From assembly GCA_947172415.1 (NCBI GenBank), contig OX359197.1:434001-498000 (forward strand): DNA of 64,000 nt, read 5' to 3'. Shown in pieces: positions 7,689 to 63,937 of the stretch. Position 1 is the stretch's first letter, and each line of letters begins with the position of its first letter. Made by a program: the position numbers and the translations under genes. Below the pieces are notes generated by a model. The model ran no database searches. It saw nothing but the letters and a program-made list of their open reading frames with translations, and was not told the DNA's origin. The DNA is from Chondrosia reniformis. Lineage: Eukaryota > Porifera > Demospongiae > Chondrillida > Chondrillidae.

Positions 7689-7826
7689 ATGTTCCTGGTA
7701 CTAGTAATGACTGCTCATGTAAATGTTCTGTTGAATAAAGGAAAATGCCATAACTTTCCATCACTGCATATCATCCCAGGTCCACCTGGTCCTCCCGGTC
7801 TGCCAACCTACTACTACAGTCACTGA
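7689..7826 (+). pseudogene. Truncated type A gene start
   Basis: Duplicate of the 5' end of the collagen-type gene at 8159. ATG at 7689 is followed by a shortened signal peptide (MFLVLVMTAHVNV), then [21 protein letters not shown], followed by a deletion that jumps into the linker sequence out of frame and stops at 7824-7826 (45 codons). Sequence past the stop continues with the linker (TCACTGAAACAGTTTATATAAC). It lies about 470 bp upstream of the intact gene and is therefore a local duplication remnant. Confidence 0.75.
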
Positions 7827-8041
7827 AACAGTTTATATAACTACGTATAAACACGTAGTTCTTGTCATTGATAAGTAGTTGTAAGATGTTGCCTGCCTGT
7901 GCATGACTATGTCAAATATTAAATTCAATGAAGGAGCTTACACTTTGGACTACATATACTCACCCACGTGCACACACCTCCTACATATATATATGTTAAA
8001 GAAGTCACTCTATTATATATTAATAAAATTCCTTAGAAGAG
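7827..8041. other. Upstream region of type A gene
   Basis: Shared with about 36350-36575 in front of the second type A gene (for example AAGATGTTGCC, CACACACCTCCTACATATAT, AATAAAATTCCTTAGAAGAG). It therefore moved with the gene in the duplication. Confidence 0.5.
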
Positions 8042-8047
8042 TATAAA
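8042..8047 (+). promoter_or_regulatory. TATA box of type A gene
   Basis: TATAAA in the context GAGTATAAATATGTGTCC, about 110 bp before the ATG at 8159. The same motif and spacing recur at 36576-36581 before the other type A gene, which supports a promoter role. Confidence 0.55.
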
Positions 8048-8158
8048 TATGTGTCCAGTTTTATTCTCTGCTTCAGAGAACAAATCAGACAGTTATAGTG
8101 TCTTGAGGGAATACAGCAATCTCAGATATATCAGCCAAGCTCCACCTGTAGCTGCAAG

Positions 8159-9247
8159 ATGTTCCTGCTGTATGTACTAGTACTAGTATTGACTGCTTAT
8201 GTAAATGCTCAGTCAAATGAAGGAAAATGCCATAACTTTCCATCACTGCATATCATCCCAGGTCCACCTGGTCCACCTGGTCCACCTGGTCCTCCTGGTA
8301 CATCCAATCAGTGCCAACCTACTACTACAGTCACTGAAACAGTTTATATAACTACAGAAACTCCCATAGAGACCACTACTTACTATGTACCTTCACCAAG
8401 TCCTTCTCCATCAAGTTCTCCTTGTATTGGCTCCACTCCAGACCAGCCTGCTTCTTCCTGCCGTGATGTCTACCAGAACAATAACCTTTGTCCTTCTGGT
8501 CTCTATTGGATCTCCACTGAATCATCTCCTCAACAAGTCTACTGTGATATGGATACCACAGCATGTGGAGTGAGAGGAGTCATGCGTATAGCCTATCTGG
8601 ATACCAGTGTATCAGATACCTGTCCCAGTAATCTTACTAAGTATGAGGTCAATGGTACAACTATGTGTGGCAGACGTAATCTAACAGTTCCATGTGATTC
8701 TGCATATTATCCATCTCATGGAGTAGAGTACAGTAATATTTGTGGTAGAGCAGTTGGTTACAGTCAGAAGGGGAGAGCTGTTTGTGGTTTTTACTGGACT
8801 ACCACAACTAGCTACTGGCATGACAACTCCATTAATGGTCTCTATGTATCTGGTGTCACAATAACAAGAGGTCCTTCTAATGATCGTACTCATGTCTGGA
8901 CATTTGCTTCCGGTCGACAAGAAGCCAATTATGATCTTTGTAGCTGTCCCTGTGCTCCAGGTGGAGATGCTGCTCCCAGTTTTGTTGGAAACAATTATTT
9001 CTGTGAATCAGCCACAAAATACTATCCTCCAGTAAGTGATGGACATCAATGGTACACTAACTACACATTGTGGCAAGGCAATTGTTATGAAGGTAGCAAC
9101 TGTTGTCCCGACGATGGAAGACCATGGTTTAATGTTGCACTGGACAATCCCACTACTCAAGATCTAGAAGTACGCTGGTGTGGCTATACAAGGCTTAATC
9201 ACTATGGCAACATAGCAACAGAGATTTTGGAACTTTTTGTGTACTGA
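8159..9247 (+). CDS. Type A: collagen-tract FReD-like secreted protein
   Basis: 362 residues in one exon. Residues 1-17 are a signal peptide (MFLLYVLVLVLTAYVNA). Residues 35-47 are four Gly-Pro-Pro triplets, a very short collagen-like tract. Residues 50-97 are a Thr/Ser/Pro-rich linker likely to be O-glycosylated. Residues 101-131 form a fibrinogen N-terminal half-module (CRDVY..., SGLYWI, QQVYCDM). Residues 132-362 form the shared Cys-rich C-terminal domain, with [38 protein letters not shown] and EVRWCG, ending ILELFVY. The classical fibrinogen GGWTVIQ segment is replaced by [14 protein letters not shown], so this is FReD-like rather than a canonical fibrinogen domain. The collagen plus FReD layout recalls ficolins; trimerisation through the tract is inference. 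No lesions seen. Confidence 0.85.
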   Translation: MFLLYVLVLVLTAYVNAQSNEGKCHNFPSLHIIPGPPGPPGPPGPPGTSNQCQPTTTVTETVYITTETPIETTTYYVPSPSPSPSSSPCIGSTPDQPASSCRDVYQNNNLCPSGLYWISTESSPQQVYCDMDTTACGVRGVMRIAYLDTSVSDTCPSNLTKYEVNGTTMCGRRNLTVPCDSAYYPSHGVEYSNICGRAVGYSQKGRAVCGFYWTTTTSYWHDNSINGLYVSGVTITRGPSNDRTHVWTFASGRQEANYDLCSCPCAPGGDAAPSFVGNNYFCESATKYYPPVSDGHQWYTNYTLWQGNCYEGSNCCPDDGRPWFNVALDNPTTQDLEVRWCGYTRLNHYGNIATEILELFVY

Positions 9248-9634
9248 AATGATAGATGCATAGTTAAGTCACTTTTCAACAGAGAAATAGATAAGATAAA
9301 TCTTATATTTCCAATATTAACTGGAAATATGTTTGCATTATCACTATTAAGATCCATTGTAATTGCACTTTATAATACAACATAATACTTTATAGGCTAT
9401 ACTGTACCTATCATACTATATATATGCATACCATATTGTATAATGTACGTATGACACATTGATTGTTATAAGGCACACACCTCATTCACCCCTCAAGCTG
9501 CAGCAGTGTGATGACCACTCAATGTGACTTATAAATCAAATCTGATTTGGTCATTGTTAACAAGTCTGTGAATGCAAATTAAAGAAGACAAAATATACTT
9601 TCAATAGTAACTATAATAGAATACCGCATAGTAG
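9248..9634 (+). other. 3' flank of type A gene
   Basis: Contains a stretch shared with the flanks beyond satellite arrays 1 and 3 (ATTGTTATAAGGCACAC, CATTCACCCCTCAAGCT, TGTGATGACCACTCAATGTG at about 9460-9530, matching about 25640-25705 and 60850-60920). No AATAAA was found close to the stop. Confidence 0.45.
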
Positions 9635-11867: not shown

Positions 11868-12856
11868 ATGAAGCTCCTGTGTTCTTTGGTGTGTGTCTTC
11901 TTGTTACTGTCTGGTCAAGTGACCTCTCAGCAGTCTCAAGAGAGTTCTTCTTGTATCAAAACCTGTCCTGGTCTATCTGATGAATCTCCTGCAGTTTGCT
12001 GTTACCAGATCTTTAGATGCAACTCTCTCAGTCCTTCTGGATACTACTGGATCAGGACTAATGGAACAGTCCAAGCAACTCACTGTGAAATGGACCTCGT
12101 GAAGATCACTTCTAAAACTCCAGGATCAAGTGAAGACTATCCAGCAGACTCATGCTTTGATGTGTACGACTGTGACCCTTATACTAAAAATGGTAACTAT
12201 TGGATTAAGTCATCTTCACATCCTAGTCAGGTGTATTGTAATATTAACAACATTGCTAGACTCAGATCACCATATGGAAAAAGTATTGCTACACCAGCCA
12301 ATTCGTGTAGTGCCATCTATAATTACAATCCTTCAAGTCCTTCTGGGTACTATTGGATTAAGACATCTTCATCTCCTCAACAAGTCTACTGTGATATGGA
12401 TACCACAGCATGTGGAGTGAGAGGAGTCATGCGTATAGCCTATCTGGATACCAGTATATCAGATACCTGTCCCAGTAATCTTACTAAGTATGAGGTCAAT
12501 GGTACAACTATGTGTGGAAGGAAGCTCACCTATAATCCTTGGGATGCTGTACATTATCCATCTCATGGAGTAGAGTACAGTAATATTTGTGGTACAGCAG
12601 TTGGGTATTCTTATGTAAAACGTCATGATTGTGCATTCTATTGGTCTAGAGGGCATTGGCCATTCACTGGCTCCACTGCAAATGATTTATATGTGTATGG
12701 TATCTCAATAACAAGAGGTCCTTCTAATAATCGTACTCATGTCTGGACTTATGCTGCTGGACGTTCTGATACAAATAATTTTAGTAATGTTTGTAACTGC
12801 TGCTCCTAGTTTTATTGGAAACAACTATTTCTGTGAATCGGCCACAAAGTACAGAC
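11868..12856 (+). pseudogene. Type B FReD-like gene, C-terminally broken
   Basis: The open frame runs 11868-12809 (313 codons). It has a signal peptide MKLLCSLVCVFLLLSGQVTS and three half-modules of the form C..I/V...SG.YWI...Q..C.M (about residues 45-75, 96-126 and 147-176). The shared C-terminal domain follows, with the NPWDAV and WPFTGS variable segments also seen at 41057. A deletion inside the CNCPCAP segment at about 12802 shifts the frame and gives an early TAG at 12807-12809; the lost sequence includes [16 protein letters not shown]-related bases follow out of frame to about 12856, where homology stops abruptly at the reverse-strand exon B remnant. The last third of the domain is therefore missing. 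Probably non-functional, though a short secreted product is possible. Confidence 0.8.
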
Positions 12857-13995
12857 ATCCACATTATTTGTACAGTTAGAGCTCTCAAGTAGTTCTGGTG
12901 ACTAAATACAGAAGAGATAATTTCTGAATACATATGCTTGAATGAAAACAGACTTGCAAGAAAAAAATTAAATGTGGTCATTACTTCAATGATATCATTG
13001 TTAATAAAGATTGGTCTTATCAGCATATGACATTGATGAAGTGAAATGAATCACACACATCTAAAATGTGACAATGCAGTATTAGGAGTCCAAGATGAGT
13101 GTTCAGTCACTTGGCTGGTTAGGTATAATAACTCCAGTGATTATCTCTTTTATAATCTGTATACTTTCACTCACCTAAATCCCTGTGGCATGAGAGAGTC
13201 AAGTTCTTCTTGAAACTGTACATATTGTCCTCCCTATACAATATATTAGTATTGTTATATATACATATGTACTGTACGAATATAATTGCTGATTAATTAT
13301 ATAGGAGGTGTACATGTGAAGTATCTAGTACCTACGTAGGTGAGTCACAAACCATCAAATATAAAATAATGTTTCAGTCTATACTATTAGTATACTTTTT
13401 AGCCTCCTATATGTATACGTACGTATATTACGTATATACATGTCATGATGACATCTATAGTGAAGTGGTTTTACAGGTTGTTATTATATACAGAATCATC
13501 ATAAATAACAGATTAGATAGTAAACAACATTTGGTGACTATATTTGTGCAACACAAACTACATAAACATAAACAACATTTAATTTGTGGTGAGGTAATGA
13601 TAAAATTTACTCGTGACCCGTGTCATATGTACGTATATGTATATATATGAGTAGAATATAACAAAACATCTATATGTACTTTCACAAAAATATGGTGCTA
13701 TAAACACATACATAAATAATATAATTAATTTGTAAGATGTAGCAATATACGTACTCTTGCAAAAATAGATATATGTCAAAGCTGATCTCCTGAATGGGGT
13801 TATCCTAAAGAGCTCTTATAGGTCTTGAAGTTGGACTGGAGTGAGATATAGCCTGCATGTTTCCATTGTGAATGTTGCAGCTAAAGTTATCAATCTATAC
13901 TAGTTACTGTGACCACTTATCTATGAACTAATTGCTCTGTTGTGCCTAGCAGTAGTAAGGCTTCATAATATTCCAATTTTCAGAATGTTATATTG
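12857..13995 (+). repeat. Duplicon copy II
   Basis: Begins at a breakpoint inside exon B (remnant 12872-12901 on the reverse strand, ending at the TTTAG acceptor). It then follows copies III, IV and V through exon A (13175-13233) and the AATTTGTGGTGAGG and TCCTGAATGGGG landmarks. The open frames 13369-13650 and 12781-13026 are by-products of this repeat. It carries extra CGTA tetranucleotides at 13334-13337 and 13750-13753 that sister copies lack. Confidence 0.75.
13175..13233 (-). CDS. Exon A, duplicon copy II
   Basis: Reverse strand, 59 bp: acceptor TATAG|GGAGG, then GGQYVQFQEELDSLMPQGF, then donor TTTAG|GTGAGT. The phase (ends with 2 nt) fits exon B, which starts with one T before CACCAGAAT in intact copies. 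In this copy exon B is cut off at about 12872, so the pair is broken. Function unknown. Confidence 0.5.
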
Positions 13996-14430: not shown

Positions 14431-15597
14431 GTGACCTCTCAGCAGTCTCAAGAGAGTTCTTCTTGTTTCAAAAGCTGTCCTGGTCTATCTGATGAATCTC
14501 CTGCAGTTTGCTGTTACCAGATCTTTAGATGCAACTCTCTCAGTCCTTCTGGATACTACTGGATCAGGAATAATGGAACAGTCCAAGCAACTCACTGTGA
14601 AATGGACCTCGTGAAGATCACTTCTACAACTCCAGGTTCAAGTGCAGACTATCCAGCAGACTCATGCTTTGATGTGTACGACTGTGACCCTTACACTAAA
14701 AATGGTAACTATTGGATTAAGTCATCTTCACATCCTAGTCAGGTATATTGTAATATTAACAACATTCCAAGACTTAGGTTACTGTATGGAAAACGTATTG
14801 CTACACCAGCTGATTCATGTAGTACCATCTATAAGTACAATCCTTCAATAGCATCTGGGTACTATTGGATTAAGACTTCTTCATCTCCTCAACAAGTCTA
14901 CTGTGATATGGATACCACAGCATGTGGAGTGAGAGGAGTTATGCGTATAGCCTATCTGGATACCAGTGTATCAGATACTTGTCCCAGTAATCTTACTAAG
15001 TATGAGGTCAATGGTAAAACTATGTGTGGAAGGAGAAACCTAAGAGATACATATGCATGTGATTCTGTATATTATCCATCTGAAGGTGTAGAGTACAGTA
15101 ATATCTGTGGTAGAGCAGTGGGGTATGCTCACAGCGGAAGTGGGAGTGGTTTCTTCACTTGTGGATTTTGGTGGATTGCCTTAGGTAATGATATTAATGG
15201 TCTCTATGTATCTGGTGTCACAATAACAAGAGGTCCTTCTACCGATCGTACTCATGTCTGGACGTATGCTGCTGGTAGACAAGAGGTCTCAGGTCCTAAT
15301 TGTAACTGTCCCTGTGCTCCAACCAATGGAGCCGATCCTCCAAATTTTGTTGGAAACAACTATTTCTGTGAATCAGCCACAAAATACCAACCTCCTGCAG
15401 AAGGTCAATGGTTCACAAACTACACAATGTGGCAAGGCAATTGTTATGAAGGTAGCGACTGTTGTCCCGATGATGGAAGACCATGGTTTAATGTAGATCT
15501 TGACAGTCCTACCAATGAAGATATAGAAGTACGCTGGTGTGGTAGTATAACTAATGATAATATAGCAACAGAGCTTTTGGAGATTTTTGTGTACTAA
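14431..15597 (+). pseudogene. Type B FReD-like gene lacking promoter and signal peptide
   Basis: 388 open codons but no start: the frame opens with GTG ACC TCT CAG, an in-frame TAA lies at 14419-14421 and no ATG intervenes. Compared with 11868, a deletion joins the far leader (TGTAGTCCCTTTAATC) straight to TCAAGTGACCTCTCAGCAG, removing the proximal promoter, the ATG and the hydrophobic signal. Everything downstream is intact: three half-modules and the full C-terminal domain ending LLEIFVY, with its own variable segments (RDTYACDS, GSGSGFFTCGFWW, EVSGPNCNCPCAP). An AATAAA at 15691-15696 lies about 95 bp past the stop. It is best seen as a silent copy that could donate sequence by gene conversion, unless an upstream exon supplies a new start. 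Confidence 0.8.
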
Positions 15598-16479: not shown

Positions 16480-17397
16480 ATGCATTACAGAGAAACTTCA
16501 TTACTTATCTTCTTATTCTGCCTCCTGAACTATGATCTAGTTCACTGTGCAGAGGAGAGGAGAGTGATGCGTGATTTACAAGATGGGGAACAAAACTGCA
16601 CTAGTGCCACTTGTCCTGGTATATCTATCCACTGTCCTGCTACCTCCTGTTTTGAAGTGCTGAAATGTAACTCTCTCAGTCCATCAGGATATTACTGGAT
16701 CAGGACATCTTCGTGTGTACAGAGAATGTACTGTAAAATGGAGAAGATTACTTGCAACTTTCCTGGGTCATGTGCTGAATATCCTGCAGAATCTTGTCGT
16801 TCCATATTTGAATGTGATCCTTCAATAACTTCAGGAGACTATTGGATTAAGACTTCTTCATCTCCTCAACAAGTCTATTGTGATATGGATACCACAGCAT
16901 GTGGAGTGAGAGGAGTCATGCGTATTGCCTATCTGGATACCAGTGTATCAGATACCTGTCCCAGTAATCTTACTAAGTATGAGGTCAATGGTACAACTAT
17001 GTGTGGCAGACATAATTTAACAGTTCCATGTGATTCTGTATATTATCCATCTCGTGGAGTAGAGTACAGTAATATTTGTGGTAGAGCAGTTGGTTACAGT
17101 CAGAAGGGAATAGCTGTTTGTGGTTTTTGGTGGAGTACTGCTATTGCCTCCTGGGACTTCATCTCCATCAATGATCTCTATGTATCTGGTGTCACAATAA
17201 CAAGAGGTCCTTGTTATGATCGCACTCATGTCTGGACTTATGCTGCTGGACATTCTGCTACAGTAGATGATGCTTGTAACTGTCCCTGTGCCCCAAATGG
17301 TACTACTGCTCCCAGTTTTGTTGGAAACAATTATTTCTGTGAATCAGCCACAAAATACGAACCTCCAGTAGGTGATGGACATGTGAGAGATACGTAG
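16480..17397 (+). pseudogene. Type C FReD-like gene cut by satellite array
   Basis: 305 codons: signal peptide (MHYRETSLLIFLFCLLNYDLVHC), two half-modules, then the shared domain with SQKGIAVCGFWWSTA and DACNCPCAPNG. At PVGDGH (about 17383) the coding sequence stops matching its sisters (which continue QWYTNYTLWQGNCY...) and runs into satellite DNA, adding VRDT and a stop. About 60 residues containing [12 protein letters not shown] and EVRWCG are lost. The missing 3' end is not found at the far side of the array. The junction reads CAT|GTGAGAGA, so the satellite happens to supply a donor-like GTGAGA. Function of the truncated product is doubtful. Confidence 0.8.
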
Positions 17398-18398
17398 GGC
17401 AAATATGAGTGAACATCAAAATTTGCAAAACTCTTTGGATATGTTTTATGGATGTCTGTGAATGCTGAACGCAAGTTTCAGCTTCACATCTTTCCAATTG
17501 ACAGAGTTACAGCACTAAATGTACATTAGATTCTTGTATACAAATTTAAAGTATGGTGAGAGATAGGGCAAATATGAGTGAACATCAAAATTTGTAAAAC
17601 TCTTTGGATATGCTTTAAGGATAGCTATAAATGCTGACAACAAGTTTCAGCTTCACATCTTTCCAATTGACAGAGTTACAGCACTAAATGTACATTAGAT
17701 TCTTGTATACAAATTTAAAGTATGGTGAGATATAGGACAAATATGAGTGAACATCAAAATTTGCAAAACTCTTTGGATATGCTTTAAGGATAGCTGTGAA
17801 TGCTGACAGCAAGTTTCAGCTTCATATCTTTCCAATTGACAGAGTTACAGCACTAAATGTACATTAGATTCTTGTATACAAATTTAATGTATGGTGAGAG
17901 ATAGGACAAATATGAGTGAACATCAAAATTTGCAAAACTCTTTGGATATGCTTTAAGGATAGCTGTGAATGCTGACAGCAAGTTTCAGCTTTACATCTTT
18001 CCAATTGACAGAGTTACAGCACTAAATGTACATTAGATTCTTGTATACAAATTTAAAGTATGGTGAGAGATAGAGCAAATATGAGTGAACATCAAAATTT
18101 GTAAAACTCTTTGGATATGCTTTAAGGATGTCTGTGAATGCTGACAACAAGTTTCAGCTTCACATCTTTCCAATTGACAGAGTTACAGCACTAAATGTAC
18201 ATTAGATTCTTGTATACAAATTTAATGTATGGTGAGAGATAGGACAAATATGAGTGAACATCAAAATTTGCAAAACTCTTTGGATATGCTTTAAGGATAG
18301 CTGTGAATGCTGACAGCAAGTTTCAGCTTCACATCTTTCCAATTGACAGAGTTACAGCACTAAATGTACATTAGATTCTTGTATAGAAATTTAATGTA

Positions 18399-19121
18399 CG
18401 GGAGTTTCGTAATAATATAAATGGCCGACCTAGAGAAGGGAATATTGAAAATACGTTACTTTTATATGTATATTTGAATGACGAGAACGCTTTTAAAGAT
18501 TTTAATGCACATGGATATTCACTCTGTAATACTTGATTGTTTTGAAGTAGTATCTGTCCATATTATAATATATGGATGTCGCTAAAGTGAAAAATCGTCA
18601 ATCGACTGCTAAAGAAACTCCAAAGGAAAAAAATTGGACCATACCGAACGCTACCATCCACGACGCTCAGAGGCCGGGATCGGTGGTAACGCTCTGCCGA
18701 GTTGAGCTTTGGGTGTCACTTGCGTGAGAAGAACCAGTTCTTCTCGATATGGCCGACTCATATGAATCCTAAGATATCAGATGCCAATCCCACATTACGT
18801 GGAACCCCCCCGAAATCCGGATTATTGGTGAGCACGTCTCTATGGCACCAACCGATTAGGAGACAGCTTCAGAGTCTAAGCGCTACCAACCTCTATGGGA
18901 ACCGCAACCACCATAGAGATGTGTCCAGGTAGGCCTACTATTATAAGGTTTTATCTTCTATTTAAATAAAGTAATTGCCTATGAAAACGCTTGTGGTTGT
19001 CGAATCTTCAATACTTTAGAATAGGGTATTTTTCGACCTGCAGTAACTCGGGTATCCTTTTTTGAAATTTTACAAAACTAGCAGGATATACTGTATAGCT
19101 ATATGTGCATACAGCCAAGAG
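18399..19121 (+). mobile_element. 723-bp core element, copy 1
   Basis: Unique-sequence insert interrupting the satellite at AATGTA|CGGGAGTTTCG and ending CAGCCAAGAG|GTTTCAGC. The monomer phase resumes after it with one stretch replaced. Contents in order: a TATAAATGG-like box near the left end, an ATG frame at 18572-18727 (51 codons, MDVAKVKNRQ..., lysine-rich), a second overlapping open stretch of 76 codons from 18702 that starts at TTG and ends VSR, and a polyadenylation-like AATAAA at 18965-18970. There is no transposase and there are no obvious terminal inverted repeats. It may be a captured mini-gene or a non-autonomous element whose flanks expanded into satellite. Confidence 0.75.
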
Positions 19122-21063
19122 GTTTCAGCTTCATATCTTTCCAATTGACAGAGTTACGGCACTAAATGTAGATTAGATTCTTGTATACAAATTTAAAGTA
19201 TGGTGAGATATAGGGCAAATATGAGTGAACATCAAAATTTGCAAAACTCTTTGGATATGTTTTATGGATGTCTGTGAATGCTGACAGCAAGTTTCAGCTT
19301 CACATCTTTCCAATTGACAGAGTTACAGCACTAAATGTACATTAGATTCTGCTATACAAATTTAATGTATGGTGAGAGATAGGGCAAATAATAGTGAACA
19401 TCAAAATTTGTAAAACTCTTTGGATATGTTTTATGGATGTCTGTGAATGCTGACAACAAGTTTCAGCTTCACATCTTTCCAATTGACAGAGCTACAGCAC
19501 TAAATGTACATTAGATTCTTGTATACAAATTTAATGTATGGTGAGAGATAGGGCAAATATGAGTGAACATCAAAATTTGTAAAACTCTTTGGATATGCTT
19601 TAAGGATGTCTGTGAATGCTGACAACAAGTTTCAGCTCCACATCTTTCCAATTGACAGAGTTACAGCACTAAATGTACATTAGATTCTTGTATACAAATT
19701 TAAAGTATGGTGAGATATAGGGCAAATATGAGTGAACATCAAAATTTGCAAAACTCTTTGGATATGCTTTAAGGATGTCTGTGAATGCTGACAACAAGTT
19801 TCGGCTTCACATCTTTCCAATTGACAGAGTTACAGCACTAAATGTACATTAGATTCTGCTATACAAATTTAATGTATGGTGAGAGATAGGGCAAATATGA
19901 GTGAACATCAAAATTTGTAAAACTCTTTGGATATGCTTTAAGGATGTCTGTGAATGCTGACAACAAGTTTCAGCTCCACATCTTTCCAATTGACAGAGTT
20001 GCAGCACTAAATGTACATCAGATTCTTGTATACAAATTTAATGTATGGTGAGAGATAGGGCAAATATGATAGAACATCAAAATTTGTAAAACTCTTTGGA
20101 TATGCTTTAAGGATAGCTGTGAATGCTGACAACAAGTTTCAGCTCCACATCTTTCCAATTGACAGAGTTACAGCACTAAATGTACATTAGATTCTTGTAT
20201 ACAAATTTAAAGTATGGTGAGATATAGGGCAAATATGAGTGAACATCAAAATTTGCAAAACTCTTTGGATATGCTTTAAGGATAGCTGTGAATGCTGACA
20301 GCAAGTTTCAGCTTCACATCTTTCCAATTGACAGAGTTACAGCACTAAATGTACATTAGATTCTTGTATACAAATTTAATGTATGGTGAGAGATAGGGCA
20401 AATATGATAGAACATCAAAATTTGTAAAACTCTTTGGATATGCTTTAAGGATGTCTGTGAATGCTGACAACAAGTTTCAGCTTCACATCTTTCCAATTGA
20501 CAGAGTTACAGCACTAAATGTACATTAGATTCTTGTATACAAATTTAAAGTATGGTGAGATATAGGGCAAATATGAGTGAACATCAAAATTTGCAAAACT
20601 CTTTGGATATGCTTTAAGGATAGCTGTGAATGCTGACAGCAAGTTTCAGCTTCACATCTTTCCAATTGACAGAGTTATTGCACTAAATGTACATTAGATT
20701 CTTGTATACAAATTTAAAGTATGGTGAGATATATATAGGGCAAATAATAGTGAACATCAAAATTTGCAAAACTCTTTGGATATGTTTTATGGATGTCTGT
20801 GAATGCTGACAACAAGTTTCAGCTTCACATCTTTCCAATTGACAGAGTTACAGCACTAAATGTACATTAGATTCTTGTATACAAATTTAATGTATGGTGA
20901 GATATAGGGCAAATATGAGTGAACATCAAAATTTGCAAAACTCTTTGGATATGCTTTAAGGATAGCTGTGAATGCTGACAGCAAGTTTCAGCTTCACATC
21001 TTTCCAATTGACAGAGTTACAGCACTAAATGTACATTAGATTCTTGTATAGAAATTTAATGTA

Positions 21064-21786
21064 CGGGAGTTTCGTAATAATATAAATGGCCGACCTAGAG
21101 AAGGGAATATTGAAAATACGTTACTTTTATATGTATATTTGAATGACGAGAACGCTTTTAAAGATTTTAATGCACATGGATATTCACTCTGTAATACTTG
21201 ATTGTTTTGAAGTAGTATCTGTCCATATTATAATATATGGATGTCGCTAAAGTGAAAAATCGTCAATCGACTGCTAAAGAAACTCCAAAGGAAAAAAATT
21301 GGACCATACCGAACGCTACCATCCACGACGCTCAGAGGCCGGGATCGGTGGTAACGCTCTGCCGAGTTGAGCTTTGGGTGTCACTTGCGTGAGAAGAACC
21401 AGTTCTTCTCGATATGGCCGACTCATATGAATCCTAAGATATCAGATGCCAATCCCACATTACGTGGAACCCCCCCGAAATCCGGATTATTGGTGAGCAC
21501 GTCTCTATGGCACCAACCGATTAGGAGACAGCTTCAGAGTCTAAGCGCTACCAACCTCTATGGGAACCGCAACCACCATAGAGATGTGTCCAGGTAGGCC
21601 TACTATTATAAGGTTTTATCTTCTATTTAAATAAAGTAATTGCCTATGAAAACGCTTGTGGTTGTCGAATCTTCAATACTTTAGAATAGGGTATTTTTCG
21701 ATCTGCAGTAACTCGGGTATCCTTTTTTGAAATTTTACAAAACTAGCAGGATATACTGTATAGCTATATGTGCATACAGCCAAGAG
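21064..21786 (+). mobile_element. 723-bp core element, copy 2
   Basis: Almost identical to copy 1 over its full length with the same junctions to the satellite. It lies 2665 bp after copy 1, and flanking monomers are similar, so tandem duplication of a satellite-plus-core block is more likely than a second insertion. Confidence 0.75.
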
Positions 21787-42270: not shown

Positions 42271-42672
42271 ATAGAAACATAAAAAACACAACCATATGCA
42301 TAGAGGATGTATGTTCAATTAGAAACTGTATTGCTAATATGATACACATTTCTATAGATCTGCTTCTAGGACAATAAGGTTAGGAATTTGACATAGTATT
42401 GCAATGTTAAGAATGTTACATAAAAGATTACGTGTCACCAATACTTAATGGAAAGCTTCATAAAGGATATTGTGTACTTAACTAAGCTATAAACAACCAA
42501 ATTGCATTCTTACTTCATTGCTAATAGACTTGTGGTAGCCATAATGTAACAAATAATACATTATATATTATGTATAAGCCATAACTCTTTTACTAGTGAC
42601 TAATATATAAACACATTATATGCATTATCAAAATATAGGAACACATTAGTAAGAGCTCCAGTTGAGGCTACG
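42271..42672 (+). other. Type C leader
   Basis: Same leader as before 16480 and 31972 (CTTTTACTAGTGACTAATA, AAGAGCTCCAGTTGAGGC), with a TATA box at 42604-42611, 62 bp before the ATG. Confidence 0.5.
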
Positions 42673-51400: not shown

Positions 51401-53488
51401 CAGAGTTACAGCACTAAATGTACATTAGATTCTTGTATACAAATTTAATGTATGGTGAGAGATAGGGCAAATATGAGTGAACATCAAAATTTGTAAAACT
51501 CTTTGGATATGCTTTAAGGATAGCTGTGAATGCTGACAGCAAGTTTCAGCTTCACATCTTTCTAATTGACAGAGTTACAGCACTAAATGTACATTAGATT
51601 CTTGTATACAAATTTAATGTATGGTGAGAGATAGGGCAAATATGAGTGAACATAAAAATTTGTAAAACTCTTTGGATATGCTTTAAGGATGTCTGTGAAT
51701 GCTGACAACAAGTTTCAGCTTCACATCTTTCCAATTGACAGAGTTACAGCACTAAATGTACATTAGATTCTTGTATACAAATTTAAAGTATGGTGAGATA
51801 TACGTACGTAGGGCAAATATGAGTGAACATCAAAATTTGCAAAACTCTTTGGATATGCTTTAAGGATAGCTGTGAATGCTGACAGGAAGTTTCAGCTTCA
51901 CATCTTTCCAATTGACAGAGTTACAGCACTAAATGTACATTATATTCTTGTATACAAATTTAATGTATGGTGAGAGATAGGGCAAATATGAGTGAACATC
52001 AAAATTTGCAAAACTCTTTGGATATGCTTTAAGGATGTCTGTGAATGCTGACAACAAGTTTCAGCTTCACATCTTTCCAATTGACAGAGTTACAGCACTA
52101 AATGTACATTAGATTCTTGTATACAAATTTAATGTATGGTGAGATATAGGGCAAATATGAGTGAACATCAAAATTTGCAAAACTCTTTGGATATGCTTTA
52201 AGGATAGCTGTGAATGCTGACAGGAAGTTTCAGCTTCACATCTTTCCAATTGACAGAGTTACAGCACTAAATGTACATTAGATTCTTGTATACAATTTTA
52301 ATGTATGGTGAGAGATAGAGCAAATATGATAGAACATCAAAATTTGTAAAACTCTTTGAATATGTTTTATGGATGTCTGTGAATGCTGACAGCAAGTTTC
52401 AGCTTCATATCTTTCTAATTGACAGAGTTACAGCACTAAATGTACATTAGATTCTTGTATACAATTTTAATGTATGGTGAGAGATAGAGCAAATATGATA
52501 GAACATCAAAATTTGTAAAACTCTTTGAATATGTTTTATGGATGTCTGTGAATGCTGACAGCAAGTTTCAGCTTCATATCTTTCTAATTGACAGAGTTAC
52601 AGCACTAAATGTACATTAGATTCTTGTATACAATTTTAATGTATGGTGAGAGATAGGGCAAATATGATAGAACATCAAAATTTGTAAAACTCTTTGGATA
52701 TGTTTTATGGATGTCTGTGAATGCTGACAGAAAGTTTCAGCTTCACATCTTTCCAATTGACAGAGTTACAGCACTAAATGTACATTAGATTCTTGTATAC
52801 AATTTTAATGTATGGTGCGAGATAGGGCAAATATGAAAGAACATCAAAATTTGAAAAACTCTTTGGATATGTTTTATGGATGTCTGTGAATGCTGACAGC
52901 AAGTTTCAGCTTCATATCTTTCTAATTGACAGAGTTACAGCACTAAATGTACATTAGATTCTTGTATACAAATTTAATGTATGGTGAGAGATAGGGCAAA
53001 TATGAGTGAACATCAAAATTTGTAAAACTCTTTGGATATGTTTTATGGATGTCTGTGAATGCTGACAGCAAGTTTCAGCTTCACATCTTTCCAATTGACA
53101 GAGTTACAGCACTAAATGTACATTAGATTCTGCTTTACAAATTTAATGTATGGTGAGAGATAGGGCAAATAATTGTGAACATTAAAATTTGCAAAACTCT
53201 TTGGATATGTTTTATGGATGTCTGTGAATGCTGACAGCAAGTTTCAGCTTCACATCTTTCCAATTGAGAGAGTTACAGCACTAAATGTACATTAGATTCT
53301 GCTATACAAATTTAATGTATGGTGAGAGATAGGGCAAATATGATAGAACATCAAAATTTGTAAAACTCTTTGGATATGCTTTAAGGATGTCTGTGAATGC
53401 TGACAACAAGTTTCAGCTTCACATCTTTCCAATTGACAGAGCTACAGCACTAAATGTACATTAGATTCTTGTATACAAATTTAATGTA

Positions 53489-54211
53489 CGGGAGTTTCGT
53501 AATAATATAAATGGCCGACCTAGAGAAGGGAATATTGAAAATACGTTACTTTTATATGTATATTTGAATGACGAGAACGCTTTTAAAGATTTTAATGCAC
53601 ATGGATATTCACTCTGTAATACTTGATTGATTTGAAGTAGTATCTGTCCATATTATAATATATGGATGTCGCTAAAGTGAAAAATCGTCAATCGACTGCT
53701 AAAGAAACTCTAAAGGAAAAAAATTGGACCATACCGAACGCTACCATCCACGACGCTCGGAGGCCGGGATCGGTGGTAACGCTCTGCCGAGTTGAGCTTT
53801 GGGTGTCACTTGCGTGAGAAGAACCAGTTCTTCTCGATATGGCCGACTCATATGAATCCTAAGATATCAGATGCCAATCCCACATTACGTGGAACCCCCC
53901 CGAAATCCGGATTATTGGTGAGCACGTCTCTATGGCACCAACCGATTAGGAGACAGCTTCAGAGTCTAAGCGCTACCAACCTCTATGGGAACCGCAACCA
54001 CCATAGAGATGTGTCCAGGTAGGCCTACTATTATAAGGTTTTATCTTCTATTTAAATAAAGTAATTGCCTATGAAAACGCTTGTGGTTGTCGAATCTTCA
54101 ATACTTTAGAATAGGGTATTTTTCGACCTGCAGTAACTCGGGTATCCTTTTTTGAAATTTTACAAAACTAGCAGGATATACTGTATAGCTATATTTGCAT
54201 ACAGCCAAGAG
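53489..54211 (+). mobile_element. 723-bp core element, copy 5
   Basis: Same length and content; a few substitutions (for example GATTGATTTGAAG, ACTCTAAAGG, GCTCGGAGG). It is followed by the same monomer variants as copy 4, so it arose by duplication of a 5.7-kb block. Confidence 0.75.
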
Positions 54212-57200
54212 GTTTCAGCTTCATATCTTTCCAATTGACAGAGTTACGGCACTAAATGTACATTAGATTCTTGTATACAAATTTAAAGTATGGTGAGAGA
54301 TAGGGCAAATATGAGTGAACATAAAAATTTGTAAAACTCTTTGGATATGTTTTATGGATGTCTGTGAATGCTGACAACAAGTTTCAGCTTCACATCTTTC
54401 CAATTGACAGAGTTATTGAACTAAATGTACAATAGATTCTTGCATACAAATTTAATGTATGGTGAGAGATAGGGCAAATATGAGTGAACATCAAAATTTG
54501 TAAAACTCTTTGGATATGCTAGGATGTCTGTGAATGCTGACAACAAGTTTCAGCTTCACATCTTTCTAATTGACAGAGTTACAGCACTAAATGTACATTA
54601 GATTCTTGTATACAAATTTAAAGTATGGTGAGAGATAAGGCAAATATATATGAGTGAACATCAAAATTTGTAAAACTCTTTGGATATGCTTTAAGGATAG
54701 CTGTGAATGCTGACAACAAGTTTCAGCTTCACATCTCTCCAATTGACAGAGTTACAGCACTAAATGTACATTAGATTTTTGTATAGAAATTTAATGTATG
54801 ATGAGAGATAGGGCAAATATGAGTGAACATCAAAATTTGCAAAACTCTTTGGGTATGCTTTAAGGATGTCTGTGAATGCTGACAAGCAGTTTCAGCTTCA
54901 CATCTTTCCAATTGACAGAGTTACAGCACTAAATGTACAATAGATTCTGCTATACAAATTTAATGTATGTATGGTGAGAGATAGGGCAAATATGAGTGAA
55001 CATCAAAATTTGTAAAACTCTTTGGATATGCTTTATGTATGTCTGTGAATGCTAACACCAAGTTTCAGCTTCACATCTTACCAATTGACAGAGTTATAGC
55101 ACTAAATGTACATTAGATTCTGCTATACAAATTTAATGTATGGTGAGAGATAGGGCAAATATGAGTGAACATCAAAATTTGTAAAACTCTTTGGATATGC
55201 TTTAAGGATGTCTGTGAATGCTGACAACAAGTTTCAGCTTCACATCTTTCCAATTGACAGAGTTACAGCACTAAATGTACATTAGATTCTTGTATACAAA
55301 TTTAAAGTATAGTGAGATATACGTACGTAGGGCAAATATGAGTGAACATCAAAATTTGCAAAACTCTTTGGATATGCTTTATGTATGTCTGTGAATGCTA
55401 ACACCAAGTTTCAGCTTCACATCTTTCTAATTGACAGAGTTACAGCACTAAATGTACATTAGATTCTTGTATACAAATTTAATGTATGGTGAGAGATAGG
55501 GCAAATATGAGTGAACATCAAAATTTGTAAAACTCTTTGGATATGCTTTAAGGATAGCTGTGAATGCTGACAGCAAGTTTCAGCTTCACATCTTTCTAAT
55601 TGACAGAGTTACAGCACTAAATGTACATTAGATTCTTGTATACAAATTTAATGTATGGTGAGAGATAGGGCAAATATGAGTGAACATCAAAATTTGTAAA
55701 ACTCTTTGGATATGCTTTAAGGATGTCTGTGAATGCTGACAACAAGTTTCAGCTTCATATCTCTCCAATTGACAGAGTTACAGCACTAAATGTACATTAG
55801 ATTTTTGTATAGAAATTTAATGTATGATGAGAGATAGGGCAAATATGAGTGAACATAAAAATTTGCAAAACTCTTTGGGTATGCTTTAAGGATGTCTGTG
55901 AATGCTGACAAGCAGTTTCAGCTTCACATCTTTCCAATTGACAGAGTTACAGCACTAAATGTACAATAGATTCTGCTATACAAATTTAATGTATGTATGG
56001 TGAGAGATAGGGCAAATATGAGTGAACATCAAAATTTGTAAAACTCTTTGGATATGCTTTATGTATGTCTGTGAATGCTAACACCAAGTTTCAGCTTCAC
56101 ATCTTTCTAATTGACAGAGTTACAGCACTAAATGTACATTAGATTCTTGTATACAAATTTAATGTATGGTGAGAGATAGGCAAATATGAGTGAACATCAA
56201 AATTTGTAAAACTCTTTGGATATGCTTTAAGGATAGCTGTGAATGCTGACAGCAAGTTTCAGCTTCACATCTTTCTAATTGACAGAGTTACAGCACTAAA
56301 TGTACATTAGATTCTTGTATACAAATTTAATGTATGGTGAGAGATAGGGCAAATATGAGTGAACATCAAAATTTGTAAAACTCTTTGGATATGCTTTAAG
56401 GATGTCTGTGAATGCTGACAACAAGTTTCAGCTTCACATCTTTCCAATTGACAGAGTTACAGCACTAAATGTACATTAGATTCTTGTATACAAATTTAAT
56501 GTATGGTGAGAGATAGGGCAAATATGAGTGAACATCAAAATTTGTAAAACTCTTTGGATATGCTTTAAGGATAGCTGTGAATGCTGACAGCAAGTTTCAG
56601 CTTCACATCTTTCTAATTGACAGAGTTACAGCACTAAATGTACATTAGATTCTTGTATACAAATTTAAAGTATGGTGAGATATAGGGCAAATATGAGTGA
56701 ACATCAAAATTTGCAAAACTCTTTGGATATGCTTTAAGGATAGCTGTGAATGCTGACAGGAAGTTTCAGCTTCACATCTTTCTAATTGACAGAGTTACAG
56801 CACTAAATGTACATTAGATTCTTGTATACAAATTTAAAGTATGGTGAGATATAGGGCAAATATGAGTGAACATCAAAATTTGCAAAACTCTTTGGATATG
56901 CTTTAAGGATAGCTGTGAATGCTGACAGGAAGTTTCAGCTTCACATCTTTCTAATTGACAGAGTTACAGCACTAAATGTACATTAAATTCTTGTATACAA
57001 ATTTAATGTATGGTGAGAGATAGGGCAAATATGAGTGAACATCAAAATTTGTAAAACTCTTTGGATATGCTTTAAGGATAGCTGTGAATGCTGACAACAA
57101 GTTTCAGCTTCACATCTTTCTAATTGACAGAGTTACAGCACTAAATGTACATTAGATTCTTGTATACAAATTTAAAGTATGGTGAGATATAGGGCAAATA

Positions 57201-60200
57201 TGAGTGAACATCAAAATTTGCAAAACTCTTTGGATATGCTTTAAGGATAGCTGTGAATGCTGACAGGAAGTTTCAGCTTCACATCTTTCCAATTGACAGA
57301 GTTACAGCACTAAATGTACATTAGATTCTTGTATAGAAATTTAATGTATGGTGAGAGATAGGGCAAATATGAGTGAACATCAAAATTTGTAAAACTCTTT
57401 GGATATGCTTTAAGGATAGCTGTGAATGCTGACAACAAGTTTCAGCTTCACATCTTTATAATTGACAGAGTTACAGCACTAAATGTACATTAGATTCTTG
57501 TATACAAATTTAAAGTATGGTGAGATATAGGGCAAATATGAGTGAACATCAAAATTTGCAAAACTCTTTGGATATGCTTTAAGGATAGCTGTGAATGCTG
57601 ACAGGAAGTTTCAGCTTCACATCTTTCCAATTGACAGAGTTACAGCACTAAATGTACATTAGATTCTTGTATACAAATTTAATGTATGGTGAGAGATAGG
57701 GCAAATATGAGTGAACATCAAAATTTGTAAAACTCTTTGGATATGCTTTAAGGATAGCTGTGAATGCTGACAGCAAGTTTCAGCTTCACATCTTTCTAAT
57801 TGACAGAGTTACAGCACTAAATGTACATTAGATTCTTGTATACAAATTTAATGTATGGTGAGAGATAGGGCAAATATGAGTGAACATCAAAATTTGTAAA
57901 ACTCTTTGGATATGCTTTAAGGATGTCTGTGAATGCTGACAACAAGTTTCAGCTTCACATCTTTCCAATTGACAGAGTTACAGCACTAAATGTACATTAG
58001 ATTCTTGTATACAAATTTAAAGTATGGTGAGATATAGGGCAAATATGAGTGAACATCAAAATTTGCAAAACTCTTTGGATATGCTTTAAGGATAGCTGTG
58101 AATGCTGACAGGAAGTTTCAGCTTCACATCTTTCTAATTGACAGAGTTACAGCACTAAATGTACATTAAATTCTTGTATACAAATTTAATGTATGGTGAG
58201 AGATAGGGCAAATATGAGTGAACATCAAAATTTGTAAAACTCTTTGGATATGCTTTAAGGATAGCTGTGAATGCTGACAACAAGTTTCAGCTTCACATCT
58301 TTCTAATTGACAGAGTTACAGCACTAAATGTACATTAGATTCTTGTATACAAATTTAAAGTATGGTGAGATATAGGGCAAATATGAGTGAACATCAAAAT
58401 TTGCAAAACTCTTTGGATATGCTTTAAGGATAGCTGTGAATGCTGACAGGAAGTTTCAGCTTCACATCTTTCCAATTGACAGAGTTACAGCACTAAATGT
58501 ACATTAGATTCTTGTATACAAATTTAATGTATGGTGAGAGATAGGGCAAATATGAGTGAACATCAAAATTTGTAAAACTCTTTGGATATGCTTTAAGGAT
58601 AGCTGTGAATGCTGACAGCAAGTTTCAGCTTCACATCTTTCTAATTGACAGAGTTACAGCACTAAATGTACATTAGATTCTTGTATACAAATTTAATGTA
58701 TGGTGAGAGATAGGGCAAATATGAGTGAACATCAAAATTTGTAAAACTCTTTGGATATGCTTTAAGGATGTCTGTGAATGCTGACAACAAGTTTCAGCTT
58801 CACATCTTTCCAATTGACAGAGTTACAGCACTAAATGTACATTAGATTCTTGTATACAAATTTAAAGTATGGTGAGATATAGGGCAAATATGAGTGAATA
58901 TCAAAATTTGTAAAACTCTTTGGATATGCTTTAAGGATAGCTGTGAATGCTGACAGGAAGTTTCAGCTTCACATCTTTCCAATTGACAGAGTTACAGCAC
59001 TAAATGTACATTAGATTCTTGTATACAAATTTAATGTATGGTGAGAGATAAGGCAAATATGAGTGAACATCAAAATTTGTAAAACTCTTTGGATATGCTT
59101 TAAGGATGTCTGTGAATGCTGACAACAAGTTTCAGCTTCACATCTTTCCAATTGACAGAGTTACAGCACTAAATGTACATTAGATTCTTGTATACAAATT
59201 TAAAGTATGGTGAGATATAGGGCAAATATGAGTGAACATCAAAATTTGTAAAACTCTTTGGATATGCTTTAAGGATAGCTGTGAATGCTGACAGGAAGTT
59301 TCAGCTTCACATCTTTCCAATTGACAGAGTTACAGCACTAAATGTACATTAGATTCTTGTATACAATTTTAATGTATGGTGAGAGATTGGGCAAATATGA
59401 TAGAACATCAAAATTTGTAAAACTCTTTGGATATGTTTTATGGATGTCTGTGAATGCTGACAGCAAGTTTCAGCTTCATATCTTTCTAATTGACAGAGTT
59501 ACAGCACTAAATGTACATTAGATTCTTGTATACAATTTTAATGTATGGTGAGAGATAGGGCAAATATGATAGAACATCTAAATTTGTAAAACTCTTTGGA
59601 TATGTTTTATGGATGTCTGTGAATGCTGACAGAAAGTTTCAGCTTCACATCTTTCCAATTGACAGAGTTACAGCACTAAATGTACATTAGATTCTTGTAT
59701 ACAATTTTAATGTATGGTGCGAGATAGGGCCAATATGAAAGAACATCAAAATTTGTAAAACTCTTTGGATATGTTTTATGGATGTCTGTGAATGCTGACA
59801 GCAAGTTTCAGCTTCATATCTTTCTAATTGACAGAATTACAGCACTAAATGTACATTAGATTCTTGTATACAAATTTAATGTATGGTGAGATATTGGGCA
59901 AATATGAGTGAACATCAAAATTTGTAAAACTCTTTGGATATGCTTTATGTATGTCTGTGAATGCTGACAGCAAGTTTCAGCTTCACATCTCTCCAATTGA
60001 CAGAGTTATTGAACTAAATGTACAATAGATTCTTGCATACAAATTTAATGTATGGTGAGAGATAGGGCAAATATGAGTGAACATCAAAATTTGTAAAACT
60101 CTTTGGATATGCTTTAAGGATGTCTGTGAATGCTGACAACAAGTTTCAGCTTCACATCTTTCTAATTGACAGAGCTACAGCACTAAATGTACATTAGATT

Positions 60201-61923
60201 CTTGTATACAAATTTAATGTATGGTGAGAGATAGGGCAAATATGAGTGAACATCAAAATTTGTAAAACTCTTTGGATATGCTTTAAGGATAGCTGTGAAT
60301 GCTGACAACAAGTTTCAGCTTTACATCTTTCAAATTGACAGAGTTACAGCACTAAATGTACGTTAGATTCTGCTATACAAATTTATTGTACGTACGTATG
60401 GTGAGAGATAAGGCAAATATGAGTTAACATCAAAATTTGTAAAACTCTTTGGATATGCTTTATGTATGTCTGTGAATGCTGACAGCAAGTTTCAGCTTCA
60501 CATCTCTCCAATTGACAGAGTTACAGCACTAAATGTACATTAGATTTTTGTATAGAAATTTAATGTATGATGAGAGATAGGGCAAATATGAGTGAACATA
60601 AAAATTTGCAAAACTCTTTGGGTATGCTTTAAGGATGTCTGTGAATGCTGACAAGCAGTTTCAGCTTCACATCTTTCCAATTGACAGAGTTACAGCACTA
60701 AATGTACATTAGATTCTTGTTTACAAATTTAAAGTATGGTGAGATATATATATCCCTCATAATACAATATATACCATTTATTTAGGGTATATATACTATA
60801 CGTATGCATAATAACGTATATTGTTTAGTGTACGTATGACACATTGATTGTTATAAGGTACACTCCTCATTCATTCACCCCTCAAGCTACAGTAGTGTGA
60901 TGACCACTCAATGTGACTTATAAACCAAATCTGATTGGGCCATTTTTAACTATAACTCTGTGGATGCAAATTAAAGTCATTTTCAGAAGACAAAATGTAC
61001 TTTCAATAGTAACTAGAAGCATTAACATGCATATGTCTGCATTATTATTACATTATTACATACGTAGCTAGGTTAATATTCAAAGCAGTATTGTATAGAG
61101 CAAAAGGCATAATAGATATGGTATATTTATCCTATAATAATGATTATCTGCATGCATGTGCTACAATATAATATGATAATGAGTATTTACATACGTACGT
61201 AAGTGGCAGAAAGTATATATACCAGTTATAAGAGGCTGTTTATTTCCTGCTGAGGACACCTCTGATAGGTCAGTTATCAAAAAGGTGTTATGTTTACCAA
61301 GGTTCAAAAATATATATACAAAATGTTAGAAGTGAATAAATTACAGAAGCTTTGGTTATTGTTGAATAGATTTGGAAATAAAATCACTCAATTTTCAAAT
61401 CCAGCAACTTTTCTGTAAATGAATTATACTTCATTACATTAGTAATCAAATGTAATAATGCTTCATATTGTCCATAATCAATTGTATTAAGTTAGCTCCT
61501 AACGACTTTATCAGTCAATAACTTTACAAGGACTTTCTTCACATGACCTACCTAGAATTACAAATAAAAAGTGATAAGTTAAACAATAATATTGCATTAA
61601 AGTAATATAAGTACAGAGATTCAAACTGCTGATTATGCAATCATCACTTTAAGAGCACCAATGAGATATACATATGTACATGATATATATGACATTCCCT
61701 GTATGAGAATACTTCCCTCAACCTCCAGCAGCCACATCAGTCACTGAAGAAGACCCCCAAGGGTCAAAATGTCTGATTCTAAAGAAATAAACTGCATCTC
61801 TAGATGCTCAAAAGACTAAAGATGAACCATCTCAAGGATAGGTTTGGTACAGTTTATATAATTAGAAGAAATCCCTATCTTCTAAGAAGTTGTAATAGTA
61901 TATGCGACTGATACTCCACTTAC

Positions 61924-62047
61924 CCTTACAGTGGTCTGGTCCCCTGGAGGAGGAGTAACACTAAAGAGATCACTCCCTACCACACCACTACACTCCTCAG
62001 TCTCACTAGATGGCAACACAGTTAGAGCTCTCAAGAAATTCTGGTGA
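61924..62047 (-). CDS. Exon B, duplicon copy V
   Basis: Reverse strand, 124 bp, acceptor TTTAG and donor AGG|GTAAGT retained. Reads HQNFLRALTVLPSSETEE, then CSGVV, then FSVTPPPGDQTTVR. In phase with exon A at 62326-62384. Confidence 0.55.
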
Positions 62048-62325
62048 CTAAATACAGAAGAGATAACTTCTGAATATATATACGTATGCTTGAATGAATA
62101 CAGACTTGGAAGAAAACTTTAAATGTACATGTGGTTATCATTTCAATGATATCATTATTAATAAAGAGTGTTCTTATCAGCATATGACATTGATGAATGA
62201 ATCACACACATCTAAAATGTAACAGTGAAGTATTAGGAGTCCAAGATGAGTCTTCAGTCACTTGGCTGGTTAGGTATAAGAACTCCAGTGTTTATCTCTT
62301 TTACAATCTGTATACTTTCACTCAC

Positions 62326-62384
62326 CTAAATCCCCGTGGCATCAGAGAGTCAAGTTCTTCTTGAAACTGTACATATTGTCCTCC
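62326..62384 (-). CDS. Exon A, duplicon copy V
   Basis: Reverse strand, 59 bp with TATAG acceptor and GTGAGT donor; same GGQYVQFQEELDSL word as copies II-IV, with small changes near its end. Confidence 0.5.
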
Positions 62385-63114
62385 CTATACAATATATTAG
62401 TATAGTTATATATACATATGTACTGTATATAATTACTGATTAATTATATAGGAGGTGTACATGTGAAGTATCTAGTACCTAGGTGAGTCACAAACCATCA
62501 AAATTTAATATATAATAGTGTTTCAGTCTATACTATTAGTATACTTCTTAGCCTCCTATACGTATACATATATACATGTCATGATGACGTCTATAGTGAA
62601 GTGGTTTTACAGGTTGTTATTATACAGAATCATCATAAATAACAGATTAGATAGTAAACAACATTTGGTGACTATATTTGTGCAACACAAACTACTTAAA
62701 CATAAACAACATTTACTTTGTGGTGAGGTAATGATAAAATTTACTCCTTAAATAGATGACCCGTGTCATACGTATATATATGAGTAGAATATAACAAAAC
62801 ATCTATATGTACTCTCACAAAAATATGATGCTAGCTTTATATACAGTACCTCAAGGATTGCTGATAACAAGAAAGAGTAGTAAACACATTCTTTACTACT
62901 GCCAGAATCTTCTTCCTACATTAACACATACATAATAAATTCGTATGATGTAGCAATATATGTATTCTTGCAAAATAGGAATGCATGAAAAAGATAAAAA
63001 TGGTCAAAGCTGATCTCCTGAATAGGGTTATCCTAAAGAACTCTTATAGATCTTAAAGTTGGACTGGAGTGAGGTAGCCTGCATGTTTCCAGTGTGAACA
63101 TTGCAGCTGGTATA

Positions 63115-63937
63115 TACTGGAAAACGTATTGCTACACCAGCCAATTCGTGTAGTGCCATCTATAACTACAATCCTTCAAGTCCTTCTGGGTACTACTGGA
63201 TAAAGACTTCTTCATCTCCTCAACAAGTCTACTGTGATATGGATACCACAGCATGTGGAGTGAGAGGAGTCATGCGCATAGCCTATCTGGATACCAGTGT
63301 ATCAGATACCTGTCCCAGTAATCTTACTAAGTATGAGGTCAATGGTAAAACTATGTGTGGCAGACATAATCGAACAGTTCCATGTGATTCTGTATATTAC
63401 CCATCTCATGGAGTAGAGTACAGTAATATTTGTGGTAGAGCAGTTGGTTACAGTCAGAAGGGTACAGTAGCTTGTGGTTTTTGGTGGAGTAGCAATACTT
63501 TCTACTGGCACAACAACTCAATTAATGGTCTCTATGCAACTGGTGTCATAATAACAAGAGGTCCTTCTAATGATCGTAATCATGTCTGGACATTTGCTTC
63601 CGGTCGACAAGAAGCGAATTATGATGTTTGTAACTGTCCCTGTGCTTCAGGTGGAGATGCTGCTCCCAGTTTTGTTGGAAACAACTATTTCTGTGAATCA
63701 GCCACAAAATACGAACCTCCAGTAGGTGATGGACATCAGTGGTACACTAACTACACATTGTGGCAAGGTAATTGTTATGAAGGTAGCTACTGTTGTCCTG
63801 ACGATGGAAGACCATGGTTTAATGTAGATCTTGACTGTCCCACTACTCAAGATATAGAAGTACGCTGGTGTGGATATCCAGGGCTTAATTTATATGGCAA
63901 TATAGCAACAGAGATTTTGGAACTTTTTGTGTACTGA
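63115..63937 (+). pseudogene. 5'-truncated type B FReD-like gene
   Basis: Homology begins at GGAAAACGTATTGCTACACC, in the spacer before the third half-module. An in-frame TGA lies at 63095-63097 and the open frame starts without an ATG. Present are one half-module (CSAIYNYN, SGYYWI, QQVYCDM) and the complete C-terminal domain ending ILELFVY and TGA at 63935-63937. Variable segments (NRTVPC, SQKGTVACGFWWSSN, EANYDVCNCPCASGG) mix features of type A and type C genes. The signal peptide and first two modules are missing because the duplicon is joined directly to the gene middle. Confidence 0.8.

Follow-up and report, generated by a model that had tools for sequence, protein, structure and literature searches.

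How does a sponge come to carry, side by side, genes that end in one common domain and begin in quite different ways, and what is that domain? The window considered here, a stretch of 64,000 nucleotides at positions 434001-498000 of chromosome 9 (C9) of Chondrosia reniformis, contains a tandem cluster of such genes, which a sequence-only reading had described as secreted proteins with a C-terminal domain like the fibrinogen-related domain (FReD) and had proposed as a diversifying recognition locus. The genome analysed comprises 117,379,552 bases in 15 contigs, and the assembly, odChoReni1.1, is described as 14 chromosomes and a mitochondrion (PMC12181767). What is new is that the N-terminal architecture, or stalk, and the C-terminal half, which holds the tip, are reassorted between genes.

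Organization of the cluster

A tblastn search of the window with four of its own proteins revealed 16 copies or pieces within 7689-63937, all on the + strand. The single orientation described earlier therefore stands, while the count of about 13 was slightly low. Five of the 16 are intact, full-length single open frames, exactly as had been read, and 11 are damaged or partial, in line with the "eight or more" of the sequence-only reading; the type of damage was inspected in three frames for part of these. The copies are as follows.

7689..7845, + strand, collagen-type remnant with signal peptide and short collagen tract (tblastn pieces 7695-7784 and 7801-7845, in different frames; sequence)
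8159..9247, + strand, intact collagen-type gene, 362 aa, 5 uninterrupted G-X-Y triplets, one module and core
11868..12867, + strand, three-module copy with frameshift and truncation within the core (tblastn, three-frame inspection)
14431..15597, + strand, three-module copy, 388-codon open frame, signal peptide lost; C-part groups with collagen-type L026 of the neighbouring cluster
16480..17397, + strand, two-module copy ending where the 169-bp satellite starts
29005..30228, + strand, intact three-module gene, 407 aa; COLFI match of 2e-10 across three module stretches
30366..31088, + strand, piece with core only, without signal peptide
31972..33075, + strand, intact two-module gene, 367 aa, 29 Cys
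35979..36185, + strand, core-end fragment (tblastn)
36276..36332, + strand, fragment of a collagen-type copy (tblastn)
36696..37832, + strand, intact collagen-type gene, 378 aa, tract coded by a 9-bp minisatellite
41057..42271, + strand, three-module copy with internal stops late in the core (tblastn, three-frame inspection)
42673..43767, + strand, intact two-module gene, 364 aa
44043..44417, + strand, C-terminal core fragment (tblastn)
44815..45916, + strand, two-module copy with frameshifts (tblastn, three-frame inspection)
63068..63937, + strand, copy with a last module of the three-module type, upstream modules missing; C-part nearest to collagen-type 8159

Both the common C-terminal domain and the three N-terminal designs are seen directly in the sequence: a collagen tract (8159, 36696), two modules (31972, 42673) or three modules (29005). 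Identity of 11 other C-domains to the reference copy is 66-99%, far beyond chance. The secretion-type, disulfide and glycosylation features were likewise found again, with signal peptides judged by eye, and 20-29 Cys and 4-6 N-glycosylation sequons in the three intact proteins counted. In 9/9 copies checked, a TATA-like hexamer is present 60-120 bases upstream of the start codon, the motif being loose and the DNA AT-rich, and the duplicated blocks keep an identity of ~81-91% into non-coding stretches. Introns were ruled out as the source of the broken frames, because every complete copy reads as one open frame and individual copies have breaks of their own.

Stalks and tips are reassorted

For this analysis we used a close family of 22 C-domains. 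Partial copies 30366, 41057 and 45060, together with 11868 and 16480, are left out of the substitution ratios, the tree and the pair tables; MaxChi also leaves out 11868 and 16480, and includes 41057.

The modules follow the N-terminal type: those of three-module copies are 84-93% identical to one another and about 51% identical to those of the collagen type. The C-parts do not: their similarity is alike within and between types (mean 0.80 vs 0.78). The C-part tree scatters the four three-module rows over four different starred groups: 14431 pairs with L026, and L030, which belongs to the neighbouring cluster, pairs with L033; 63068 joins 8159 and the two-module pair, and 29005 joins L027, L029, L031 and L035. 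A single clade of these four rows is rejected in the C-part (p-AU 4.6e-12). For five three-module copies, four from the window and L030, none of 5000 shuffles reached the MaxChi value, and the breakpoints lie at codon columns 31-91, in or beside conserved block K1 (columns 36-82), which lies at the module-core junction. The two-module gene 31972 gave no exchange signal by MaxChi (616/5000 shuffles as high).

The flanks add to this picture. On the 5' side, the best matches of full copies are copies with the same stalk. On the 3' side, the flank tracks the tip in 14431 (97.6% identity with L026 over 209 bases) and in 8159, which shares it with the two-module copies; only 26 bases of the L030 flank match its partner L033, and for the 3' flank of 29005 no match to its tip partners was found.

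A cluster on chromosome 13 shows a comparable arrangement. Its two N-types, with eight genes each, are separated with full support in the N-part, and the same separation is rejected in the C-part (p-AU 0.0056), which nonetheless still tracks the N-type beyond shuffled labels (13/500 as low), with one starred branch only. Between L073 and L074, identity is 63.4% over the N-part and 98.9% over the C-part. All three triplets tried with MaxChi gave 0/5000, one breaking where K1 ends and two where the next block, K2, ends. In the 22 C-domains of the close family, the synonymous rate (dS) is 0.24 in K1 and 0.28 in K3, compared with 0.49 overall, as expected if exchange homogenises the conserved blocks.

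We read this pattern as ectopic exchange or conversion tracts, some of which would extend past the stop codon. The "diversifying" character proposed earlier is thus borne out in a specific form, the reassortment of N and C halves, by the C-part tree, the flanks, MaxChi and the chromosome 13 cluster.

The C-terminal domain is a short module followed by an unnamed core

The term "FReD-like" fits the module and not the part of a size suited to recognition, because a profile of the core alone finds no PDB match and no relevant Pfam match. The module, of ~50 residues, is COLFI/GGGWT/intelectin-like, and the core comprises ~210 residues. The consensus SC..I....SG.YWI....V.C.M was found in the module, which belongs with the COLFI/GGGWT modules: it has a COLFI match of 5.3e-11, and NCBIfam NF040941 (GGGWT, fibrinogen-like) scores 1.4e-11 and is present in 6/8 relatives scanned. 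A profile of 26 family members matched intelectins (2.8e-6), collagen C-propeptides (1.2e-4) and angiopoietin (8.5e-4) in PDB, always inside its first 70 positions. The core is separable from the module, being present without it in relatives L059-L061 and L079-L084. The core-only profile matched 0/177,635 PDB sequences, and 16 core members matched no relevant Pfam family, with single-member matches of 0.02 or worse.

Three familiar identities were considered and rejected at the level of sequence. A plain fibrinogen-related domain (PF00147) has 142 places in this genome, a separate set of genes, and none lies inside the window; 2/26 family members matched it (best 0.0051), and a profile-profile comparison gave a probability of 1.8% over 31 columns, all in the module. 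A large cluster of true PF00147 places lies at contig C6:2.12-2.64 Mb. Similarity to intelectin (X-type lectin) is not full-length, its match covering only 62 positions at the module end, and the core is without a PDB match. As for fibrillar collagen, COLFI (PF01410) scores above the Pfam cut-off of 26.2 bits in 2/5 family proteins (42.7 and 40.8 bits). The matches are short repeated stretches, the best covering ~50/233 profile positions, and the collagen runs in the window have 5-7 G-X-Y triplets. The Pfam cut-off would nevertheless label some of these proteins fibrillar collagen, which deserves a warning to annotators.

A medium-confidence predicted model of a bacterial homologue is a beta-sandwich with no significant structural match; its nearest non-significant matches include carbohydrate-binding modules and lectins. 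No FReD or intelectin fold is among the matches listed for this model, a result that excludes neither.

Selection on the loops

The pooled ratio of nonsynonymous to synonymous rates (dN/dS) is 0.39 over the 22 C-domains, with conserved blocks at 0.11-0.44. The five variable loops give 0.39, 0.44, 0.69, 1.04 (V3) and 1.25 (V4); their borders were drawn by eye from amino-acid variation, so the contrast between loops and blocks is partly circular. In a held-out cluster, loops have 2.4x the dN and 1.8x the dS of blocks (dN/dS 0.60 vs 0.45). We do not claim positive selection, because the held-out cluster gave 0.60 for all loops and the values above 1 in V3 and V4 were not replicated. Diversifying selection on the loops is possible.

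The family across the sponge genome

The core is present at at least 224 places in the C. reniformis genome, some of them pieces of one gene: one listing held 143 places (142/310 candidates scored) and another 145, 81 of them additional (counted by eye). These are spread over contigs C1 to C14, many as tandem clusters. The neighbouring cluster, at C9:335-363 kb, lies about 80 kb from that of the window, in opposite orientation. Stalks vary widely: among the loci read, collagen stalks have 5 to 46 uninterrupted G-X-Y triplets, with 5-7 within the window. By eye, L080 and L081 have long heptad-like repeats after a hydrophobic segment, L084 has a leader and no stalk, and some relatives look membrane-anchored. 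The collagen tract is coded by a 9-bp minisatellite (8261-8299, 4.3 copies; 36795-36899, 11.7 copies), and GPP counts range from 4 to 26 across close collagen-type relatives, so stalk length may be alterable by repeat slippage. Similar uncharacterised proteins occur in other sponges and in cnidarians. A literature search, which covered few subscription papers, found no earlier description of this family.

Relatives in bacteria and phages

A Myxococcota bacterium carries module and core in a 670-residue lipoprotein-like protein. In its phylum, surveyed with the best 14 candidates per genome at most, some match was found in 90/188 genomes, mostly to the module; GGGWT-type modules are sometimes accompanied by the core (L086, L106-L114). 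The Myxococcota relative is no stray contaminant, because there are 12 near-full-length matches across 7/188 genomes.

Viruses carry the core as well. A profile of 15 sponge cores, from which the Myxococcota row was left out, scored 8 bacterial open reading frames (ORFs; one gene is represented twice) and 19 viral ORFs (several near-identical, two from the same record) among 361 ORFs from loci picked beforehand as relatives; reversed ORFs scored 0/361. One sponge core searched against 50,697 phage records matched only 4 records, which all represent a single cyanophage gene, with values between 1e-3 and 5e-3 (limit 0.01). With L091 as the query, relatives of the cyanophage gene were found in 94 records, and in one of them the homologue follows a gene annotated phage tail fiber-like protein. 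In viral contig L087, the core protein lies between two ORFs matching tail-fibre families, largely via collagen-like repeats.

Neither the initial family profile nor the query from Myxococcota led to a confirmed viral contig, and L087 matched no named phages. PF09215 matched none of four viral records, its controls being equally silent.

As side observations, the cyanophage gene that precedes the core homologue is annotated tail fiber-like, and the genes preceding the viral core homologue at L090:1178-2206 and L115:7678-8709 match PHROG families shared with the window module (phrog_1325).

Satellites and other features of the window

A 169-bp satellite makes up about 22.6 kb of the cluster span (sum of arrays).

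17395..25544, arrays of the 169-bp satellite, the blocks separated by a ~724-bp spacer element
33238..35904, arrays of the 169-bp satellite, including a single spacer
46079..60748, further arrays of the 169-bp satellite, again with spacers

Among the best 12 of 859 candidates, the satellite is also found on contigs C2, C3, C4, C5, C9 (53-67 kb) and C14, mostly towards chromosome ends; we therefore treat it as a neighbour and set it aside as a component of the gene system. A diverged partial copy of the ~724-bp spacer (by eye) lies at 7400-7600, just upstream of the first collagen-type remnant, and the spacer is therefore dispersed. Elsewhere in the window, a tandem repeat with a 65-bp unit occupies 3804-4068 (4 copies, 97% matches), and an open frame of 403 codons lies at 864-2075 on the - strand, with a weak Kelch-like match (0.15). 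A search of the window for RNA genes and tRNAs found none.

Interpretation

We narrowly favour, at a little better than even, the view that these genes form a germline family whose products are secreted, rich in disulfides and probably oligomeric binders, and that duplication and ectopic exchange have diversified it. The stalk is a short collagen tract or one to three COLFI/GGGWT-type modules, and would form trimers or higher oligomers. The tip is the ~210-residue unnamed core with its conserved blocks and five variable loops, which may be the ligand-binding sites, with microbial or sponge-cell glycans as the likeliest ligands. Tandem duplication and ectopic exchange or gene conversion would join the stalk and promoter side of one gene to the tip of another, with breakpoints in or beside conserved blocks, K1 in the window family and K1 or K2 in the chromosome 13 cluster. 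The damaged copies would be a by-product and possibly donors. We infer the recognition role indirectly, from the presence of the core in phage proteins beside tail-fibre genes and from the beta-sandwich homologue model, which resembles carbohydrate-binding modules and lectins without significance. The analysis suggests an inherited, diversified set of putative microbe-recognition proteins, in a species described as a high microbial abundance sponge (PMC12181767).

The chief alternative, which we regard as unlikely, is that these are extracellular-matrix proteins with a structural or assembly role in the sponge mesohyl, multiplied in a species built of collagen, with loop variation as drift. 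The species is indeed described as having a dense collagenous matrix (PMC7459819), collagen tracts are present, and COLFI exceeds its cut-off in two three-module proteins. However, those matches are short and repeated, and runs of 5-7 triplets are short for fibres. The core also sits on a coiled-coil or no stalk, and in phage and bacterial proteins, and diversification of loops is unexpected in a lattice protein.

We give rather less credence to a decaying tandem array with little function, in which unequal exchange creates and removes copies and mosaicism is a passive outcome of concerted evolution. The 11/16 damaged or partial pieces would agree with such decay, as would the satellite, which cuts one copy and also sits on five other chromosomes. 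Against it stand the five full-length open frames, the constraint on the C-domains (pooled dN/dS 0.39) and their conserved blocks (0.11-0.44), and, among the core places listed elsewhere in the genome, a majority without an internal stop. Self/non-self or allorecognition between sponge individuals, instead of microbe binding, would also suit a large family that is diversified in the germline, has variable tips and is secreted or, in some relatives and judged by eye, anchored in the membrane, but is improbable, as nothing here favours homotypic binding and the window proteins look secreted.

Returning to the secreted binders diversified by exchange, a broader proposal is offered tentatively, and we think it on balance doubtful: that sponges run a large germline-combinatorial recognition repertoire on an adhesion domain common to phage tail regions and bacterial surface-type proteins, with interchangeable stalks joined to variable tips by exchange at conserved blocks, which would be the innate counterpart, in an animal rich in microbes, of a diversified antigen-binding repertoire. 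If the tips do bind microbes, one sponge would possess hundreds of secreted binders put together by stalk-tip swapping, and microbe sorting by animals without adaptive immunity would become testable gene by gene.

Comparison with known systems

The layout recalls ficolins, with a signal peptide, a collagen tract (a ficolin-type stalk in 8159 and 36696; Pfam Collagen seen in 36696 only, below cut-off) and a C-terminal disulfide-rich globular domain opening with a FReD-like module. Unlike in ficolins, the core is not PF00147, as the counts for window places (0/142) and family members (2/26) indicate, and the collagen runs in the window have only 5-7 triplets. Collagen ficolins are known from vertebrates and urochordates according to a survey whose introduction names amphioxus (PMC11312191). 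The fibrinogen-related proteins (FREPs) of Biomphalaria are likewise a secreted diversified family, their diversity being ascribed to gene conversion and point mutation (PMC12074976). FREPs, however, join immunoglobulin superfamily (IgSF) domains to a FReD, whereas the sponge proteins join collagen or repeated modules to a different core; FREP membership is rejected, with no IgSF match in 5 family proteins (Pfam scan). The placozoan intelectin-like genes are also clustered, secreted and FReD/intelectin-like in an early-branching animal; they are described as 31 genes without collagen or coiled coil (PMC6321704) and have been proposed for defence (PMC6321704, PMC11452194). Fibrinogen_C (PF00147) genes of a different sponge, Dysidea avara, are reported to respond to microbial signals (PMC6208332), a response that concerns a domain different from the core described here.

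The sponge module matches both the C-propeptide of fibrillar collagens (COLFI) and NF040941, yet the COLFI match is confined to the first ~50 residues and the rest of COLFI is unmatched. Finally, the cyanophage tail-region protein (T4-GC_349, AFD02876.1) has core motifs in common with the sponge proteins, at about 25-28% identity and from a gene annotated hypothetical. A core without a relevant Pfam family or PDB sequence match links animal, bacterial and phage proteins.

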